From: Candidatus Cryptobacteroides faecipullorum
Lineage (GTDB): Bacteria > Bacteroidota > Bacteroidia > Bacteroidales > UBA932
Direction of reading: 5' to 3'
DNA: 64,000 nt
Assembly (NCBI GenBank): GCA_017694885.1
Contig: JADIMH010000006.1
Span: 62,001 to 126,000 of the forward strand
The notes beneath the pieces were generated by a model that ran no database searches, had not been told where the DNA came from, and worked only from the letters and a program-made list of their open reading frames with translations. Position numbers and translations under genes: made by a program. Numbering within the stretch: the first letter of the stretch is position 1; each line of letters opens with the position of its first letter. Of the stretch, positions 4,930 through 13,894 are shown piece by piece.

Positions 4930-5220
4930 TTAGCTGTTCCTTTTCTCCTTTGCCCTGACAAGTTTGTCTTTGAGGATATCGACGCAATCTACGAGCGCGT
5001 CCTCGAATGTTTTTGCGTTTCTCTCGATTACAACGTCATTACCAGGAATCTGCACATGCACCTTGACGTTCTTGTTCTGGTGCTCCGCCAGTAATGAAAG
5101 TGCTACATCTACCCCTATGATACCGTCATGGAATTTCTCCAGTTTCGAAACTTTCTTCTCTACGAAATCAAGGAGTTTCTGGTCTGCGTTAAACTTGATG
5201 GATTGAATTCTAATCTCCAT
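4930..5220 (-). CDS. hpf: Ribosome hibernation-promoting factor (short HPF/RaiA)
   Basis: 96 aa from the ATG at 5220; the 109-aa ORF-track start is an upstream in-frame codon inside xerC. The sequence MEIRIQSIKFNADQKLLDFV, followed by a beta strand with VHVQIPGNDVVIER and a helix DALVDCVDILKDKL, is the S30Ae/RaiA fold without the long C-terminal dimerisation domain. It binds the decoding centre of idle 70S ribosomes in stationary phase. It overlaps the xerC stop by 11 nt, so it is the translationally coupled last gene of the minus-strand block. Confidence 0.88.
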   Translation of the reverse strand: MEIRIQSIKFNADQKLLDFVEKKVSKLEKFHDGIIGVDVALSLLAEHQNKNVKVHVQIPGNDVVIERNAKTFEDALVDCVDILKDKLVRAKEKRNS

Positions 5221-6316
5221 GTTTACCTCCGCTTTTTGCCCGTGGATGGGCAGTTTCATATACTTTCTTAAGTTTGGCGATGGTGTTGTGGGTATAGACC
5301 TGTGTGGCAGCGAGTGAGGAGTGACCGAGAAGCTCTTTTATGGAATTGAGGTCTGTCCCGTCTTCAAGCAGCTCTGTAGCTAATGTATGTCGTAGGACAT
5401 GCGGGGATTTCCTTGCAGTGAACCCCTCTGCTTCTCCAAGTTCGCTTTTGACTGCCCTGTCTGCATATTCGGGATAGATCGCCTTTCCCTTCGATGTGAC
5501 AAACAGCGGCGAGTCCCACCCCTGGTTTTCACAAACAGTCGCTTCAACTGCTTGTAAATATAATGAAATTTCTTTACAAAGCGAAGGAACTATCGGAATT
5601 TCTCTTGTTTTGTCACCCTTGCCTGTAACCTTCATGATCCTTCTGTTGAAATCGATGCTGCTCCTTTTGAGCGATACAAGCTCGGCCCGCCGGATCCCGG
5701 TCGCATACAGAGTGGCGACAATAACCCTTTTCAGACGTTTGCCGAACAGCCATGCGGCGAATTTTTCAGGTTTGTCCGACAGTTTTGACATCTGGGAATA
5801 GACCGGATCGTTTTCAGGCCTGTATCCAGGCGAGGATCTGTCCTGAAGATACATTTCCATGAATCTGCCTGGAGACGGTGCGGTTTCTTCACCGGCGAAG
5901 ATGTCGCTTTTCCGGAAATATCCGTTCATGTCGTCTTTCCTGTAGAAGACCGGAAGCCTTTTTTCCTGTTTGGGACGCAAAACCGTCTTTGCCGGATTTG
6001 AGGTTATAATGCCCTTTTTGAGAAGGAACCTGCAGAATCCGCTAAGGACAGAGATGTGCATGTTTACGGTTGCAGGATTGAGTTCCTTGTCTTCAATCAG
6101 ATGCATTTCATATCCCCTGATCATCAGAGGAGTGAGCGATTCCGTGATTTCTTCATCCGTCATATTTCCCTGACTTCCGTCCCCGCCTTTTGCGAATTCC
6201 GTAAAATCCTTCAGGACATCGGAGTATATTTCCGTTGTCCTCGGTGAATACCGGTGGATGGCGGAAATATATTCCAGATATTTGTCTGTCAGGGACATTT
6301 CGGGACTATTTTTCAT
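5210..6316 (-). CDS. xerC: Tyrosine recombinase XerC/XerD-like, with a long internal insertion
   Basis: 368 aa, longer than the usual ~300 for Xer recombinases. The N-terminal SAM-like core-binding domain (YLEYISAIHRYSPRTTEIY) is followed by the catalytic domain with all expected residues: Arg in ATGIRRAEL, Lys in GKGDKTREIP, HVLRH, the LLGHSS His and the tyrosine in QVYTH. Between PVFYRKDD and the first catalytic helix lie about 55 extra residues (around 140-195). The role is presumably resolution of chromosome dimers at dif. It starts within the last codons of cca (an alternative ATG is at 6298) and overlaps hpf. XerC versus XerD cannot be decided. Confidence 0.82.
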   Translation of the reverse strand: MKNSPEMSLTDKYLEYISAIHRYSPRTTEIYSDVLKDFTEFAKGGDGSQGNMTDEEITESLTPLMIRGYEMHLIEDKELNPATVNMHISVLSGFCRFLLKKGIITSNPAKTVLRPKQEKRLPVFYRKDDMNGYFRKSDIFAGEETAPSPGRFMEMYLQDRSSPGYRPENDPVYSQMSKLSDKPEKFAAWLFGKRLKRVIVATLYATGIRRAELVSLKRSSIDFNRRIMKVTGKGDKTREIPIVPSLCKEISLYLQAVEATVCENQGWDSPLFVTSKGKAIYPEYADRAVKSELGEAEGFTARKSPHVLRHTLATELLEDGTDLNSIKELLGHSSLAATQVYTHNTIAKLKKVYETAHPRAKSGGKHGD

Positions 6317-7811
6317 TGAAGCCGAGTTCGGCGGCCTTTTCTCTCATCAGCCTGTCCGCTTCTTCGAACCTGTTTTCGATTATTCCGTCCAGAATGGCGT
6401 TCTTTACATATTCCTTGATGATTCCTATCTCACGGCAAGGAGGAATTCCGTAGACGTTCATGATGTATTCTCCGGTAATCGGGTTCTTGAAATTCCTTAT
6501 GGCGTCCTTGGCTTCTACGTCTGCAAGTTTCCGCTTTACCAGATCGAAGTTCTTTTTCAGCCGCTCGACTTTTCTGGGATTCTTGGAAGTGATGTCTGCG
6601 TTGCACAGCAGCATCAGGTCGTCTATGTCGTTGCCTGCATCGAAGAGGAGCCTCCTGACTGCGGAGTCGGTCACTTCTTCTGTTACCAGAGCTATGGGCC
6701 TGAGGTGCAGCCCTACGAGTTTCTGGACGTATTTCATCTTTTCGTTCAGTGGAAGCTTCATCTGCTGGAACAGTTTCGGGACCATCCTTGCCCCTACGAC
6801 TTCGTGTCCGTGGAATGTCCAGCCGGCCTGCGGAGAATAGCGCTTGGTGGCAGGTTTCCCTATATCGTGCAGCAAAGCCGCCCATCTGAGCCACAGGCAT
6901 GGTTCCGTGCGGGGGCTGGCCGTTTCTGTCCCGTCGACATATTCATAGTCGTTGAGACTGCCTCCGGCAATGGCTGCGTTCTCGTATTCCGCGACATTGT
7001 CGACTACCTCCAGAGTATGGCTGAAATTTTCCTTATGTCCTTTGCCTTCGACGGTTTCCACTCCTTTGAGTTTTGTGATCTGAGGCAGGATGTATTCCAG
7101 AAGACCGGTCTGGTCGAGCAGCCGGAAACCTATTGAAGGTTTCTCGCATACGAGAATCTTGTTGATTTCTTCCGTTATCCTTTCTTTTGACAATATCGAC
7201 AGTCTGTCCCTGTTCCTTTTTATCGATTCGAGCGATTCAGGAACGATCCTGAATATCCTTTCACCTGATGTCAGCTTTGTGGCGAACCGTATCGCCCTTA
7301 TCATTCTCAATGGGTCATCGCTGTAGGTGGTATCGGGATCCAGAGGAGTCCGTATTATTCCTGAAGCCAGATCCCGGATACCGCCGAAAGGGTCTACGAG
7401 AGCTCCGAAATCCTCTTTCTGCAGGCTGAATGCCATGGCGTTTATGGTGAAATCCCTTCTGAGCTGGTCGTCTTCAAGCGTTCCGTCTTCCACTATCGGC
7501 TTGCGGGAATCCCTTCTGTAGGATTCTTTCCTTGCTCCGACGAATTCGACTTCCATGCCGTGATATTTCAGCATTGCAGTCCCGAAGTTCTTGAATACGG
7601 AGACATTGCTTTTTACGGTCTCACCTACGGCCCGGGCCAGTTCTATGCCGCTTCCTTCTACCACTATGTCAATATCCTTACACGGCCTGCCCAGAAAGCA
7701 GTCCCTGACGTATCCTCCTATGACGAAGGCTCTTACGCCCATCCGCTGCGCAGCGGTGGAGACTATGTCGAATATCTTGTGGTCGAGAAATCCTTCTGTA
7801 ATGGTGCTCAT
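6306..7811 (-). CDS. cca: CCA-adding tRNA nucleotidyltransferase with HD domain
   Basis: 501 aa. The N-terminal class II nucleotidyltransferase head has GGYVRD and the metal-binding DIDIVV, then the RRDFTINAMAF motif and the ExxR region (DPLRMIRAIRFA). The C-terminal part contains an HD phosphohydrolase motif (LLHDIGKP). It adds or repairs the 3' CCA of tRNAs, which matters here because tRNA-Leu in this window lacks an encoded CCA. The HD domain is typical for Bacteroidota versions. Its stop overlaps the xerC start by 11 nt. A -7-like element lies about 50 nt upstream. Confidence 0.92.
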   Translation of the reverse strand: MSTITEGFLDHKIFDIVSTAAQRMGVRAFVIGGYVRDCFLGRPCKDIDIVVEGSGIELARAVGETVKSNVSVFKNFGTAMLKYHGMEVEFVGARKESYRRDSRKPIVEDGTLEDDQLRRDFTINAMAFSLQKEDFGALVDPFGGIRDLASGIIRTPLDPDTTYSDDPLRMIRAIRFATKLTSGERIFRIVPESLESIKRNRDRLSILSKERITEEINKILVCEKPSIGFRLLDQTGLLEYILPQITKLKGVETVEGKGHKENFSHTLEVVDNVAEYENAAIAGGSLNDYEYVDGTETASPRTEPCLWLRWAALLHDIGKPATKRYSPQAGWTFHGHEVVGARMVPKLFQQMKLPLNEKMKYVQKLVGLHLRPIALVTEEVTDSAVRRLLFDAGNDIDDLMLLCNADITSKNPRKVERLKKNFDLVKRKLADVEAKDAIRNFKNPITGEYIMNVYGIPPCREIGIIKEYVKNAILDGIIENRFEEADRLMREKAAELGFNEK

Positions 7812-7870: not shown

Positions 7871-8854
7871 TTATTTCAGCATTTCTTCATATTGAGGAGC
7901 CGTCTGTTCCGCCCTGTATCCTTCCGGTCCCTTGCGGAAAATGACGGTACGGGCGCCGTTTGTGATAATGATGTATTTGACAGACAGTACCATGTTGTAT
8001 CTTATGGCCTGTTCGAGGACATTCCTGTCCAGTCTGACCTCAGGCCGTTTGCATTCTACTACGGCCAGCGGCCTTGCCTGTCTGTCATATACCAGTATGT
8101 CTGCCCTGAACTGCTTGTCTCCGAGTCGGAATCCTGTCTCGCTCATCATCATGTGCATGGGTATTTTCATCTGTCCGTGCAGCAGTTCATTGATACACCA
8201 CTGTCTTACGGCTTCTTCCGGCGTCAGGGCGACTTCCTTTTTCCTGAGAGGGTCCCGGACGGTCTTCTGCCGGCGGACGGCTGTCGGATTTCCGTGCTGT
8301 GAAACGGCTCCTTTCAGTAATCCGGCAACTTCCGATGCGACTTCATCGGATTCTTTTCCGTCGGTATCTATGATGTACCGGGCCGTGTCTTCATATGTTT
8401 GTTCTCTCTGTTTCATCAGCTGCTCTATCCTGGCGCGTAATTTTCCGGTGTCTGCACCGGCGGTATTGAGCATCGGCCTGCCTTCGAAGTCGTTCTCAAG
8501 GTTATGTACCAGGGTTTCGACCGAGGCCTTGAGATAGATGCAGACGGTTCTGTCTTTCACAAGTCCGGCGCACTGCGGTGTAGTGAGCGTTCCTCCGCCA
8601 AGAGATAGGACAAGCAGGTTTTCCGCTCCCGGCATGTCCGGATGTCCGGCTTCAACTATCTTTCCGAGGGCGAGCTTTTCGATCCTTCTGAACTCTGTTT
8701 CTCCGTCTGTTCCGAAAATATCGGGAATTTTCCTTCCCTCGCGTTCTTCTATGAATGCATCAAGGTCCACGAAAGGGCAGTGCAGCATCATGGCAAGTGA
8801 TTTGCCGACCCTGCTTTTGCCGCATCCCATAAATCCTGTCAATGATATGATCAT
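7871..8854 (-). CDS. aroK: Shikimate kinase fused to an HsdR_N (type I restriction R-subunit N-terminal) domain
   Basis: 327 aa in one uninterrupted frame. Residues 1-175 are shikimate kinase: P-loop GFMGCGKS (7-14), substrate aspartate in DLDAFIEER, Arg in EFRRIE, LSLGGGTLT and the lid Arg in EGRPML, so it should phosphorylate shikimate with ATP. A basic linker (around 180-210) leads to residues 211-327: TPEEAVRQW, RADILVYD (Asp252), VVECKRP (Glu268, Lys270), RYNMVLSVKYIIITNG. This matches the HsdR_N-type PD-(D/E)XK fold, which in Bacteroidales is usually a small stand-alone protein. No hsdM or hsdS is nearby, so a restriction role is unlikely. The fusion may be physiological or a joined pair of neighbouring genes. 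Confidence 0.85.
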   Translation of the reverse strand: MIISLTGFMGCGKSRVGKSLAMMLHCPFVDLDAFIEEREGRKIPDIFGTDGETEFRRIEKLALGKIVEAGHPDMPGAENLLVLSLGGGTLTTPQCAGLVKDRTVCIYLKASVETLVHNLENDFEGRPMLNTAGADTGKLRARIEQLMKQREQTYEDTARYIIDTDGKESDEVASEVAGLLKGAVSQHGNPTAVRRQKTVRDPLRKKEVALTPEEAVRQWCINELLHGQMKIPMHMMMSETGFRLGDKQFRADILVYDRQARPLAVVECKRPEVRLDRNVLEQAIRYNMVLSVKYIIITNGARTVIFRKGPEGYRAEQTAPQYEEMLK

Positions 8855-8899: not shown

Positions 8900-11617
8900 T
8901 CAGAACAGGCTGAGCTGTTCATCCATTTCTTCTCCGTCGGCGTCATCATGTCCTTCGGCAGTGTCATTGCCGGAAATCTCATCTTTATCGGACCGGTCTG
9001 TGTCCTGTACGCCAGCGGTTTCTTCCAGATCGTCTTCAGGCTTGTGCAGCGGTTCTATGAACCTGATTTCCTTTATTTCGTACTGGCTGGCTTTTTTCCC
9101 TTTGGCCTGAAAGCCTTTCTTGCCTATGAATTCTTCCGCATCGATGTGTTCGGCAGGCCTGTATTCGTGCTTTCCTCCGAATACGGCTTCGATCTGAGGG
9201 TGCCTGTCATCGCTTACAGCCACCAGATATGAGCCTTTTTCTTCGGAGATGAAAGACTGCAACGTGTTTTCGCTCACTTCGAAGGAGAATCGCTTGATGT
9301 AGAAGCATTCCTGTTTTCCGTCGTAGTAGATGGCCGTATATGTTTTCCCGGGGTCGAACTTTTCGACTTTCAGAAGATTGTCCTGATATCTGTTGCTCAG
9401 GTCGAACGAAGTGGTGTAATATGTTCCGTCATTGAATATCGCCAGAATGTGTTCTCCGGTATTGAACTGACCCAGATACAGGCCTCTTCCGTCTTCGTTC
9501 AGCCTGTTGATGTCCTGGTCGAACCAGATGTCTTTTCCGCCGATGGTCGATATGCCTTTGGATTTGAGCGATATCCTCTGGATAGGATTCTTGGAGACGA
9601 GGTTTCCTCTGGAAGCACGTCCTTTTATCGCAAGCTGCGAGAAATCGTATTCGAAGGAAGACTTTTTCAGTTTCGGGCGCGGCCTGAGGTTGATGCGGAC
9701 CGTTTCCGCCTCACCGTTCCCGTTGGCCGTGAACCACAGGACGGCAGAACCGGGAGTGCCCATTGTAAGGTCATATTCCTTGTCTCTGGTAATGCTGGTG
9801 ACGGCGAACCTTTTGGCGTATGTCACGCTGCTTTTCCCGTCGCGGTAGATGGCATTGTAGATGGTCCTGGAGTCGTTTCTGTCGAACAGTCCGACATACA
9901 GGAGGTCTTTCCCGAAGAAAGCCTTGTCGCTGACTTTAGTGACGCTGTACTTACCGTCCTTACGGAACACGATGATCTCTGAAAGGTCGGAGCAGTCGCA
10001 GATGAAATCCGCATTGTCCTCTTTCTTGAGATTGATCCCGACAAAGCCTTCCGACATGTTTGCATACAGCTTGGCGTTGTTGTTCACTACCCGGGAAACT
10101 GTGATGGATTCGAAGTTTACGATTTCCGTCTGTCTCGGGAACTCACCTCCGTATTTTTTCTTGAGGTTCTTGAAGTAGTTGATGGTGAATTCGGTAAGGT
10201 GCTCCAGGTGGTTGGTGACCTCGTCTATTTCCGCTTCTATGCCTTTAAGCTTCTCATCCAGTGTCCTGACGTCGAATTTGGATATTTTCCTTACTGGCTT
10301 TTCCACCAGACGGCTGATGTCCTCCATTACGATCTCTCTCTTGAACAGGCCCTGATAGGTCTTCATGGTAGCGAACACCTCATCGAGCTGTTCCTCCCAG
10401 CTGCGGGAATCCTTTTCCAGGATCTTATAGACCTTGTTCTCGAAGAATATCCTTTCCAGCGAACTGTAATGCCATTCGTTCTCCAATTCATCCATCCTTA
10501 TCTGCAGCTCCTGACCGAGAAGGTCTCTGGTGTGCATCGTGTCATAGACCAGTATGTCGTTGACATTCAGGAACTGGGGCTTGTTGTCTACGATTACGCA
10601 GGCATTAGGCGATATGGAAACTTCACAGTCTGTGAACGCATACAGAGCATCGATTGTCTTGTCCGGTGAGACATCGTTGGGAAGATGAATCACCAGATTG
10701 GCCTGGACAGTAGTCAGATCGTCTATTTTCTTGATTTTGATTTTGCCCTTGTTCTTGGCCTTTATGATGGATTCGATTACCATATGGGTGGTCTTTCCGT
10801 AAGGGACTTCGGTGATGGCTATGGTATTCTTGTCGATCTTTTCGATTTTCGCGCGGACCTTGACAGTCCCTCCTCTCTGGCCTTTGTTGTACTTAGAACA
10901 GTCGGCATACCCTCCGGTAGGAAAGTCCGGCAGAAGCTCGAAATCTTCTCCTTTGAGAATGGATACCGATGCGTCGATCAGTTCATTGAAGTTGTGCGGG
11001 AGAATTTTTGATGCAAGGCCTACGGCAATACCTTCGGCTCCCTGGGCAAGGAGCAGAGGAAATTTTACAGGCAGTTCTACAGGTTCCTGGTTCCTGCCGT
11101 CGTAGGAGGTCATCCAGTTGGTGATTTTCGGGTTGAAGACAACTTCTTTTGCAAATCTGGAAAGGCGGGCTTCGATGTAACGGGCTGCTGCATTGGGATC
11201 ACCAGTGATGATGTTTCCCCAGTTTCCCTGGCAGTCTATCAGGAAATTTTTCTGCCCCAGCTGTACCAGTGCCCCCAGAATGGAAGCGTCTCCGTGAGGA
11301 TGGAACTGCATGGCTTCTCCGACCAGATTCGCGACCTTGGTGTAATGTCCGTCGTCTTTCCTGAACATGGCATGGAGTACTCTCCTCTGGACCGGTTTGA
11401 GTCCGTCGATGATGTGGGGGACGGCTCTTTGGAGAATGACATATGAGGAATAGTCCAGAAACCATTCCTTGAACATTCCGGAAAGCTTGTATTTCCGGCT
11501 GTTCTCGCTGAGCAGTTTGTCGAATCTGCCGGTAGACGGTGTCCCTTCGTCTACCGGAGTGTCGCTGTAGTCATCCTCCTGCCCTTCTACGGGCAGATCC
11601 ATGTCGTCCATCTCCAT
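8900..11617 (-). CDS. parC: DNA topoisomerase IV subunit A (Bacteroidota type)
   Basis: 905 aa. After an acidic N-terminus, the breakage-reunion domain starts with YVILQRAVPHIIDGLKPVQRR and holds the catalytic tyrosine in AARYIEARL (Tyr147). The GyrA-box/tower region has a coiled coil (IEAEIDEVTNHLEHL). The C-terminal half is a beta-pinwheel-like wrapping domain, ending in an acidic tail and DEQLSLF. The sequence LKGEDFELLPDFPTGG is typical. It relaxes and decatenates DNA with ParE, which is not in this window; the gyrB at 59 kb is a different subunit. It lies between era (18 nt upstream) and the aroK fusion (45 nt downstream). Confidence 0.9.
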   Translation of the reverse strand: MEMDDMDLPVEGQEDDYSDTPVDEGTPSTGRFDKLLSENSRKYKLSGMFKEWFLDYSSYVILQRAVPHIIDGLKPVQRRVLHAMFRKDDGHYTKVANLVGEAMQFHPHGDASILGALVQLGQKNFLIDCQGNWGNIITGDPNAAARYIEARLSRFAKEVVFNPKITNWMTSYDGRNQEPVELPVKFPLLLAQGAEGIAVGLASKILPHNFNELIDASVSILKGEDFELLPDFPTGGYADCSKYNKGQRGGTVKVRAKIEKIDKNTIAITEVPYGKTTHMVIESIIKAKNKGKIKIKKIDDLTTVQANLVIHLPNDVSPDKTIDALYAFTDCEVSISPNACVIVDNKPQFLNVNDILVYDTMHTRDLLGQELQIRMDELENEWHYSSLERIFFENKVYKILEKDSRSWEEQLDEVFATMKTYQGLFKREIVMEDISRLVEKPVRKISKFDVRTLDEKLKGIEAEIDEVTNHLEHLTEFTINYFKNLKKKYGGEFPRQTEIVNFESITVSRVVNNNAKLYANMSEGFVGINLKKEDNADFICDCSDLSEIIVFRKDGKYSVTKVSDKAFFGKDLLYVGLFDRNDSRTIYNAIYRDGKSSVTYAKRFAVTSITRDKEYDLTMGTPGSAVLWFTANGNGEAETVRINLRPRPKLKKSSFEYDFSQLAIKGRASRGNLVSKNPIQRISLKSKGISTIGGKDIWFDQDINRLNEDGRGLYLGQFNTGEHILAIFNDGTYYTTSFDLSNRYQDNLLKVEKFDPGKTYTAIYYDGKQECFYIKRFSFEVSENTLQSFISEEKGSYLVAVSDDRHPQIEAVFGGKHEYRPAEHIDAEEFIGKKGFQAKGKKASQYEIKEIRFIEPLHKPEDDLEETAGVQDTDRSDKDEISGNDTAEGHDDADGEEMDEQLSLF

Positions 11618-11635: not shown

Positions 11636-12526
11636 TTAGTATTCGTATCCGAACCTTTTAAGTTCTTTCTTGTTTTCCCTCCAGTCCGGGTCTGTCTTGA
11701 CGAAAAGTCTCAGGAAGACCTTTTTCTGGAAGAAATCCTCCATTTCCAGGCGGGCCTGTGTCCCTACCTTTTTCAAGGAGGCGCCGCCTTTGCCTATGAT
11801 TATCCCTTTCTGGGATTCTCGTATTACATAGATTACGGCGCTTATCTCATAGCGTTCAGCCCCTTCCTTGAATTCCTCGACGGCTACTTCGCAGCTGTAC
11901 GGGATTTCCTGACTGTAGTTCAGCAGGATTTTCTCTCTGATGATTTCGGAAGCGAAGAACCTCAGGTTCTTGTCCGTAAAGACATCCTTGTCGTACCATG
12001 GCGGAGCAACGGGCAGATGCTCGATTATGGCATCGAAGATATTCTCGAGATTGAATTTTTCCTGAGCTGACGCCGGGTAGATGACGGCCTGCGGCAACTG
12101 TTCGTGCCACCAGTCCATCAGCTGGTGTACCTTTTCCTGGGTGCTGATGTCTATCTTGTTGATTACCAGGATTACGGGGCATTCGATATTGCGCAGTTTT
12201 CCGATATATTCGGCATTCTTGTCGCTTTTCTCCACTACATCGGTCACATACAGGATAATGTCTGCATCGCCGATGGCGGTGTCCACGAAGTTCATCATGC
12301 TCTGCTGCAGCCTGTAATTCGGTTTCAGGATACCGGGAGTGTCGGAGTAGACTATCTGATAGTCTTCCCCGTTCACTATTCCCATTATCCTGTGCCGCGT
12401 AGTCTGTGCCTTGGCTGTCACGATGGACAGTTTCTCTCCCACCAGGGCATTCATCAAAGTGGATTTGCCGACATTCGGGTTGCCGATGATGTTCACAAAT
12501 CCTGCGCGGTGTTTCTTTTCACTCAT
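11636..12526 (-). CDS. era: GTPase Era
   Basis: 296 aa. G1 GNPNVGKST, G2 region TTRHRIMGI, G3 DTPG, G4 NKID and G5 SAQ are all present. The C-terminal KH domain carries GIIIGKGGASLKKVG. Era binds the 3' end of 16S rRNA and assists 30S maturation. It sits 9 nt after rluB and just before parC in the same direction, linking rRNA modification and assembly genes. The length is normal for the family. Confidence 0.95.
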   Translation of the reverse strand: MSEKKHRAGFVNIIGNPNVGKSTLMNALVGEKLSIVTAKAQTTRHRIMGIVNGEDYQIVYSDTPGILKPNYRLQQSMMNFVDTAIGDADIILYVTDVVEKSDKNAEYIGKLRNIECPVILVINKIDISTQEKVHQLMDWWHEQLPQAVIYPASAQEKFNLENIFDAIIEHLPVAPPWYDKDVFTDKNLRFFASEIIREKILLNYSQEIPYSCEVAVEEFKEGAERYEISAVIYVIRESQKGIIIGKGGASLKKVGTQARLEMEDFFQKKVFLRLFVKTDPDWRENKKELKRFGYEY

Positions 12527-12535
12527 AATGTACGG

Positions 12536-13894
12536 CTAAACGTAAGCTCCCATTTTCAGGATATTCACTTCCCCCTGCGAGAGATATCTCCAGGCTCCTC
12601 TCTTGAGTCCCTTTTTGGTGAGTCCGGCAAAATATACCCTGTCAAGACCTTTTACGCTGTATCCGAGCGATTCGAATATCCTTCTTACGATACGGTTCTT
12701 GCCGGAGTGTATCTCTATGCCGAGTTTCCTGTGGTCCTTGTCATCGATGTACTCGAGTTCGTCTGCGGCGATAACGCCGTCGGCAAGTTCGATTCCGCTC
12801 ATGATGCGGTCATAGTCATCCTTAGCGAGATCCTTGTCGAGGGTTACCTGGTAGATCTTCTTCTTGTCGTATGAAGGATGTGTGAGCTTTTCGGCTATTT
12901 CACCGTCGTTAGTGAACATGAGCACTCCGGTGGTATTCTTGTCCAGGCGACCTACAGGGAATACCCTTGCCGAACAGCTTTTCAAAAGGTCCATGACTGT
13001 CTTGTCCGCGTGAGGGTCGCTTGCCGTTGTGACGAAGCCCTTAGGCTTATTCATTACGATATATACCTTTTCTTCACCTCTGAGCTTTTCACCGTTGAAC
13101 CTTACGTCATCCGTGTAGATGTTGACTTTCGTACCGAGTTCGGTGACAAGTTTGCCGTTGACGGTCACCACTCCGGCAAGTATGAGATTATCGGCTTCCC
13201 TGCGGGAACATACTCCGGAATTGGCTATGAATTTGTTGAGCCTTACTTCTTCCTTTACCGGAATATTCACCATATCGTTGTCCGAGAACCTGATGTCGTC
13301 AAGCTGCGGTTTCCTGCTGATCATCCTGTTTATGCCGGCGGCAGCGGCATCCGGCTGTCTTTTCATGCTGTTCCTTCCGGCAGGGGCGCCAGGCCTTCTG
13401 TTCCTTCCTGCTGCAGGGCCGCCTTTCCGCGCTCCCTGGAAACCCTTCCTTCCGGCAGGTCTTCCTGCAGAAAAGCTTCTTCTGTCATCGGTCTCTCCTC
13501 CGAAGAACCTTCTTCCTTCATTGCCGTTTTCGCCGTAGGAGCGCCGGCCTTCACTGTTTTCTCCATATGGCCTTCTCTGCGCCGGTCTTCTTGATCCGAA
13601 TCCGCTTCTTTCAGACCTTTCTCCGAAGTTTCTTTCTCCGTATCCGCGGTTCCCGTCAGAATACCTGCCGCTGCCATAGCTCCTGCGTTCGCCGTATCCT
13701 GAACTTCTCCTGTCCTGGAATGTGCGTCCGCTGCGCTCTTCGTCTGATCCTCCCGTGTAATTCTTTCTGTGGCGGAGTTTCCGCCCGGCCTGAGAATAGC
13801 CGCTTGTGTAGTTTTTTTCCGAATGTCTTTCGCTTCCGTAATCCCTACGGTCGCTGAACTGGCTGTCGAAGCCGTCGTTTTTGTAGTTTTCCAT
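12536..13894 (-). CDS. rluB: rRNA pseudouridine synthase (RsuA/RluB family) with Arg/Gly/Tyr-rich N-terminal tail
   Basis: 452 aa. The first ~200 residues are low complexity, rich in R, G, Y, S and E, with repeats such as YGERR, RRSYGE and GRNRRPGAPAGR. They are followed by an S4 domain (RLNKFIANSGVCSRREAD) and a catalytic domain with VMNKPKGFVTT and GRLDKNTTGVL, whose Asp is the nucleophile. It probably isomerises a uridine in 23S rRNA near the peptidyl transferase centre. Such basic, disordered tails occur in Bacteroidota RluB proteins and probably bind RNA. The gene starts a minus-strand run through era and parC. No strong promoter was recognised in the AT-rich spacer upstream. Confidence 0.88.
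   Translation of the reverse strand: MENYKNDGFDSQFSDRRDYGSERHSEKNYTSGYSQAGRKLRHRKNYTGGSDEERSGRTFQDRRSSGYGERRSYGSGRYSDGNRGYGERNFGERSERSGFGSRRPAQRRPYGENSEGRRSYGENGNEGRRFFGGETDDRRSFSAGRPAGRKGFQGARKGGPAAGRNRRPGAPAGRNSMKRQPDAAAAGINRMISRKPQLDDIRFSDNDMVNIPVKEEVRLNKFIANSGVCSRREADNLILAGVVTVNGKLVTELGTKVNIYTDDVRFNGEKLRGEEKVYIVMNKPKGFVTTASDPHADKTVMDLLKSCSARVFPVGRLDKNTTGVLMFTNDGEIAEKLTHPSYDKKKIYQVTLDKDLAKDDYDRIMSGIELADGVIAADELEYIDDKDHRKLGIEIHSGKNRIVRRIFESLGYSVKGLDRVYFAGLTKKGLKRGAWRYLSQGEVNILKMGAYV

Follow-up and report, generated by a model that had tools for sequence, protein, structure and literature searches.

The window, that is, the whole stretch of 64,000 nucleotides analysed here (Candidatus Cryptobacteroides faecipullorum, contig JADIMH010000006.1), carries a reverse-strand gene in which a shikimate kinase continues in frame into a nuclease-fold domain. 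The features at this locus are:

4930..6316, minus strand: hpf (S30AE) and an xerC-type integrase gene, the remainder of the downstream block (Pfam, synteny)
6306..7811, minus strand: cca-type tRNA nucleotidyltransferase, the downstream neighbour, preceded by hsdRN in relatives (Pfam, synteny)
7871..8854, minus strand: the fused gene, 327 aa, shikimate kinase plus HSDR_N_2 PD-(D/E)XK domain (ORF, Pfam, relatives)
7928..8221, minus strand: HSDR_N_2 PD-(D/E)XK nuclease-fold domain, residues 212-309 (Pfam, invariant columns, Foldseek)
8246..8314, minus strand: linker, about residues 181-203 (poorly conserved, low model confidence, no in-frame ATG/GTG/TTG)
8324..8830, minus strand: shikimate kinase domain, residues 9-177 (Pfam SKI, active-site residues, Foldseek)
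8813-8836, minus strand: P-loop of the kinase domain
8900..11617, minus strand: parC (topoisomerase IV/gyrase subunit A), the upstream neighbour, which precedes aroK in relatives (Pfam, synteny)
11636..13894, minus strand: era and rluB-type genes, the remainder of the upstream block (Pfam, synteny)

The rluB-type pseudouridine synthase (window 12536-13894) has a low-complexity N-terminal extension of ~200 residues, rich in Arg, Gly and Ser, before its S4 domain.

The frame of the fused gene is uninterrupted from ATG to stop over 327 residues. Its first half matches Pfam SKI at residues 9-177 (126.2 bits, E 1.7e-36; cut-off 22.1) and carries the kinase landmarks, namely the P-loop GFMGCGKS, DLD, R56, GGG at 86-88, the lid residue R126 and R150; the window protein does not attain the NCBIfam full-length equivalog cut-offs for shikimate kinase. 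The second half matches Pfam HSDR_N_2 at residues 212-309 (84.2 bits, E 8.7e-24; cut-off 25) and shows the PD-(D/E)XK landmarks D252, E267-C-K269 and Q282xxxY286; HSDR_N likewise exceeds its cut-off, at residues 237-307. ORF, Pfam matches and landmarks thus bear out the sequence-only reading, which had described a complete shikimate kinase in frame with an HsdR_N fold and had proposed a search of the second domain against these two profiles. A loop within the kinase domain (window 8615-8650, residues about 69-80) has low confidence and is very variable in length among the fused relatives. AlphaFold modelled the whole fusion (mean pLDDT 91.8, pTM 0.63) with high confidence in both domains but a weak linker, where pLDDT dips at 191-193. 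Using Foldseek, we matched the first half to solved shikimate kinases (prob 1.00), including the enzyme of Bacteroides thetaiotaomicron, and the second half, modelled separately (pLDDT 94.3, pTM 0.87), to the nuclease domains of BsaXI, HsdR and BpuSI. A codon scan of the window gene revealed no in-frame ATG, GTG or TTG between residues 147 and 229, which rules out a canonical internal start yielding the whole second domain alone. The window gene is therefore predicted to make one polypeptide, and production of the second domain apart by ordinary initiation is unlikely.

We then assessed how widely the fusion occurs. Among 400 genomes of the same genus, the full-length fusion was found in seven, each a different species and including that of the window, with one match each; the gene is single-copy in all seven, which contain no other copy of either domain. 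The further occurrences that the sequence-only reading had suggested seeking do exist: six other species, represented by metagenome-assembled genomes, carry the fusion at 64-76% identity to the window protein, the most distant being G343 (64%). A separate search returned the fusion in 'Ca. Cryptobacteroides avicola', 'Ca. C. excrementipullorum' and an uncultured Bacteroidales bin, and it also returned 'Ca. C. faecavium', in two-part form. The 394 other genomes of the class yielded no further fusion at E <= 1e-29, a cut-off that distant fusions could miss. The fusion is lineage-specific, its carriers being a small cluster of gut Bacteroidales that have not been cultured. That it could be an assembly or sequencing artefact is scarcely conceivable: all named relatives were assembled from metagenomes, and the remaining ones look like assemblies of that kind, but seven genomes have a full-length open fusion with purifying selection on both sides of the junction. 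A frameshift or assembly error in the window, named beforehand as a way in which the fusion could prove false, is excluded by the open fusion common to the seven species.

Both parts of the protein are strongly conserved. Ten kinase sites (K13, S14, D30, D32, R56, G86-88, R126 and R150) are identical in all seven fusions and, when 25 kinase rows were aligned, all were invariant except S14, replaced once by T. In the nuclease domain, D252, E267, K269, Q282 and Y286 are identical in 7/7 fusions, and the D, E-x-K, Q and Y positions never vary among 33 second-domain sequences, of which 17 come from other Bacteroidales families. Pairwise dN/dS came to 0.11-0.21 in the kinase and 0.00-0.11 in the second domain, against 0.31-0.66 in the linker; these ratios are rough, many synonymous distances being near saturation. 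Among the fused relatives the linker varies in both sequence and length and is the fastest-evolving part. Judging from these alignments, purifying selection acts on both halves, the linker is drifting, and both halves look active. In G098 and G410 (L090:2573-3604 and L091:7913-8881), the branch of the kinase half is long relative to that of the second domain, which suggests faster kinase evolution in these two.

The gene order in relatives points to how the two halves met. In unfused relatives, aroK closes the block rluB-era-parC-aroK and hsdRN opens the block hsdRN-cca-xerC-hpf, the two blocks lying on different contigs. Directly downstream of parC and on the same strand, aroK is found in 15 of 18 unfused relatives; in the other three, a gap of 486 bases separates parC and aroK (one genome) or the two genes are convergent (two genomes). 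Similarly, hsdRN is directly upstream of cca in 14/15 unfused relatives, and the ends of the two genes often overlap. Eight genomes have the joined order rluB-era-parC-aroK/hsdRN-cca-xerC-hpf, and our trees place all eight in one clade (support 100/100). A single clade of joined genomes, together with separate blocks in the relatives, implies that a single rearrangement made aroK and hsdRN neighbours; synteny and tree show one block-joining rearrangement in the ancestor of the eight sampled Cryptobacteroides species. Of the two options offered by the sequence-only reading, the better fit is a fusion of neighbouring genes with no joint function, except that the two genes were not ancestral neighbours but belonged to separate blocks.

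The seam is read through in seven of the eight joined genomes. In the eighth, G101 ('Ca. C. faecavium'), the two-gene locus occupies the same joined position (L087:7941-8893): aroK stops at a TGA, and the ATG of hsdRN follows two bases on in another frame, and about 39 codons of that frame 5' of the ATG are free of stops as well. A stop and restart at the seam had been named beforehand as the observation that would speak against the fusion; it is seen in this one relative, and the fusion of the window stands, shared as it is by seven species. The two-gene form of G101 is possibly a frame error in its assembly or a recent split. We see about equal chances for and against a history in which the ancestor was already fused and the 'Ca. 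C. faecavium' form arose by a later split or a one-base assembly frame error, or in which fusion occurred twice. The branching of fused G343 before two-gene G101 in the larger tree (support 81/78) and the open stretch 5' of the G101 ATG favour it, but that support is below the usual threshold and the grouping of the seven fusions as a single clade is not rejected (p-AU 0.078). This early-fusion history is compatible with a passive fusion at an operon seam and bears on history only.

We also surveyed the rest of the window's genome, which is 91% complete, making absences likely but not certain. EPSP synthase-type (aroA) and dehydroquinate synthase-type (aroB) genes are present elsewhere, and no second shikimate kinase or HSDR_N_2 domain was found in this 91%-complete genome; hence the search left the fused kinase as the sole candidate for the shikimate kinase step. 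Methylase_S (HsdS) had no match genome-wide, whereas control genomes do give matches, so that the hsdS part of the earlier observation that neither hsdM nor hsdS lies nearby holds and extends to the whole 91%-complete genome. The PADLOC matches were all weak and lay in the nuclease part of type I proteins, and we dropped the candidate of a defence gene.

Taken together, a fusion at an operon seam with two independent activities kept is the likely reading, as judged from sequence comparison. The rearrangement joined the end of one operon-like block, rluB-era-parC-aroK, to the start of another, hsdRN-cca-xerC-hpf, placing aroK directly 5' of hsdRN in the same direction. In the seven species, the continuous frames would then yield one polypeptide, in which a linker of about 15-25 residues, flexible and variable, tethers the kinase to a small PD-(D/E)XK domain. 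Given its intact sites and the purifying selection on it, the kinase half would make shikimate-3-phosphate for chorismate synthesis. The second domain would act on nucleic acid, probably as a metal-dependent nuclease, in the manner of the widespread stand-alone protein of Bacteroidia. The other option of the sequence-only reading, a nucleic-acid sensor, gained no positive evidence; every PD-(D/E)XK catalytic residue is kept, and these intact residues point to cleavage no less than to sensing. The halves most likely keep separate jobs, as they do when they are separate proteins in relatives, the fusion being presumably tolerated and not required for a joint mechanism. One finding counts against a passive fusion: it has persisted through divergence down to the 64% identity of G343, which is compatible with some benefit. 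A fixed arrangement of the two domains is also possible.

Alternatively, the fusion could be functional, the kinase and the nuclease-fold domain regulating each other, for example if nucleic acid or metabolite binding at one altered the other. Seven species have kept the two domains together, no catalytic residue being lost, and there is a precedent for a shikimate-kinase fold recruited beside a DNA-binding domain (BzdR, PMC3602430). We nevertheless consider mutual regulation unlikely: the linker is the part that varies most, the junction falls exactly at the seam of the two joined blocks so that a mechanical origin suffices, 'Ca. C. faecavium' in the same clade has the two as separate genes, and no other fusion appeared among the 394 other class genomes at the cut-off given above. 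A two-way device in which a sole-copy biosynthetic kinase is coupled to a nucleic-acid-processing enzyme appears likewise unlikely; if true, it would link the supply of aromatic precursors to DNA or RNA processing in the fused clade.

Outside the fused clade, the second domain exists as a stand-alone HSDR_N_2 protein of 130-200 aa that is near-universal in the class Bacteroidia (examples L107-L126). PF13588 matches were found in 95 of the 98 class genomes at least 90% complete, a count that includes some type I proteins, and in nearly all of these genomes a short open frame matches. Twenty other Bacteroidales genomes, each from another family, were compared: in 15 the gene lies near a holA-group gene and is mostly divergent from it, and one holA-group representative proved to be DNA polymerase III delta. 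Elsewhere in the phylum, in other classes (L128-L132), the domain is present in proteins of ~300 residues with a different C-terminal extension, in which inspection by eye found no kinase motifs. Our search, which covered part of the literature, returned no paper on the function of the stand-alone protein or on the fusion. As far as we found, the domain pairing is new, while gene fusion at an operon seam is a known kind of event. Read as an operon-seam fusion, the locus offers a clean natural case of how a protein of two unrelated domains can arise, blocks being joined and the genes at the seam merged, and relatives still display the unfused and the two-gene arrangements. It cautions against taking every gene fusion as a sign of joint function, and it provides a handle for studying a PD-(D/E)XK protein that nearly all Bacteroidia carry and whose catalytic residues do not vary.

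Finally, we compared the window protein with known systems. Its closest counterpart is the stand-alone Bacteroidia HSDR_N_2 protein, which has the same domain (D, E-x-K, Q-x3-Y, E-E-x-V-R-Q and NG being invariant across the 33 sequences) but no kinase attached, and is usually encoded near holA in other Bacteroidales families or before cca in Cryptobacteroides. With the N-terminal domain of HsdR (EcoR124I, 2w00; 3h1t) it shares a PD-(D/E)XK core with Q-x3-Y, sequence and fold similarity being weak. Unlike HsdR, it has no SF2 helicase motor, ending after the nuclease fold, and we excluded an HsdR subunit of a type I system on the absence of both a motor domain and any HsdS in the 91%-complete genome. 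The HsdR label applies to the fold only; the real relatives are the stand-alone proteins.

For the kinase half, the fold and active site are those of AroK (for example of B. thetaiotaomicron, PDB 3VAA), but 3VAA and the other solved bacterial matches are single-domain proteins, whereas the window protein carries a C-terminal nuclease-fold domain. BzdR-type regulators (HTH plus shikimate-kinase-like) also join a shikimate-kinase fold to a DNA-contacting domain, and BzdR itself combines a DNA-binding domain with a shikimate-kinase-like domain lacking enzymatic activity (PMC3602430). On this precedent the kinase half might be a sensor steering the second domain, a reading to which we attach very little probability, since the BzdR kinase domain lost its activity while the site here is intact: all checked kinase active-site residues are invariant, and this is the only shikimate kinase found in a genome where other pathway genes are present. 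Moreover, the order of the domains is reversed, the DNA-binding domain of BzdR being N-terminal, and the partner is a nuclease fold, not a helix-turn-helix; Pfam found no HTH family in the window protein, which sets it apart from the BzdR type. Shikimate kinase likewise forms part of a larger protein in AroK-AroB and in pentafunctional AROM; these fusions join steps of one pathway, whereas in the window the partner of the kinase is unrelated to its pathway.
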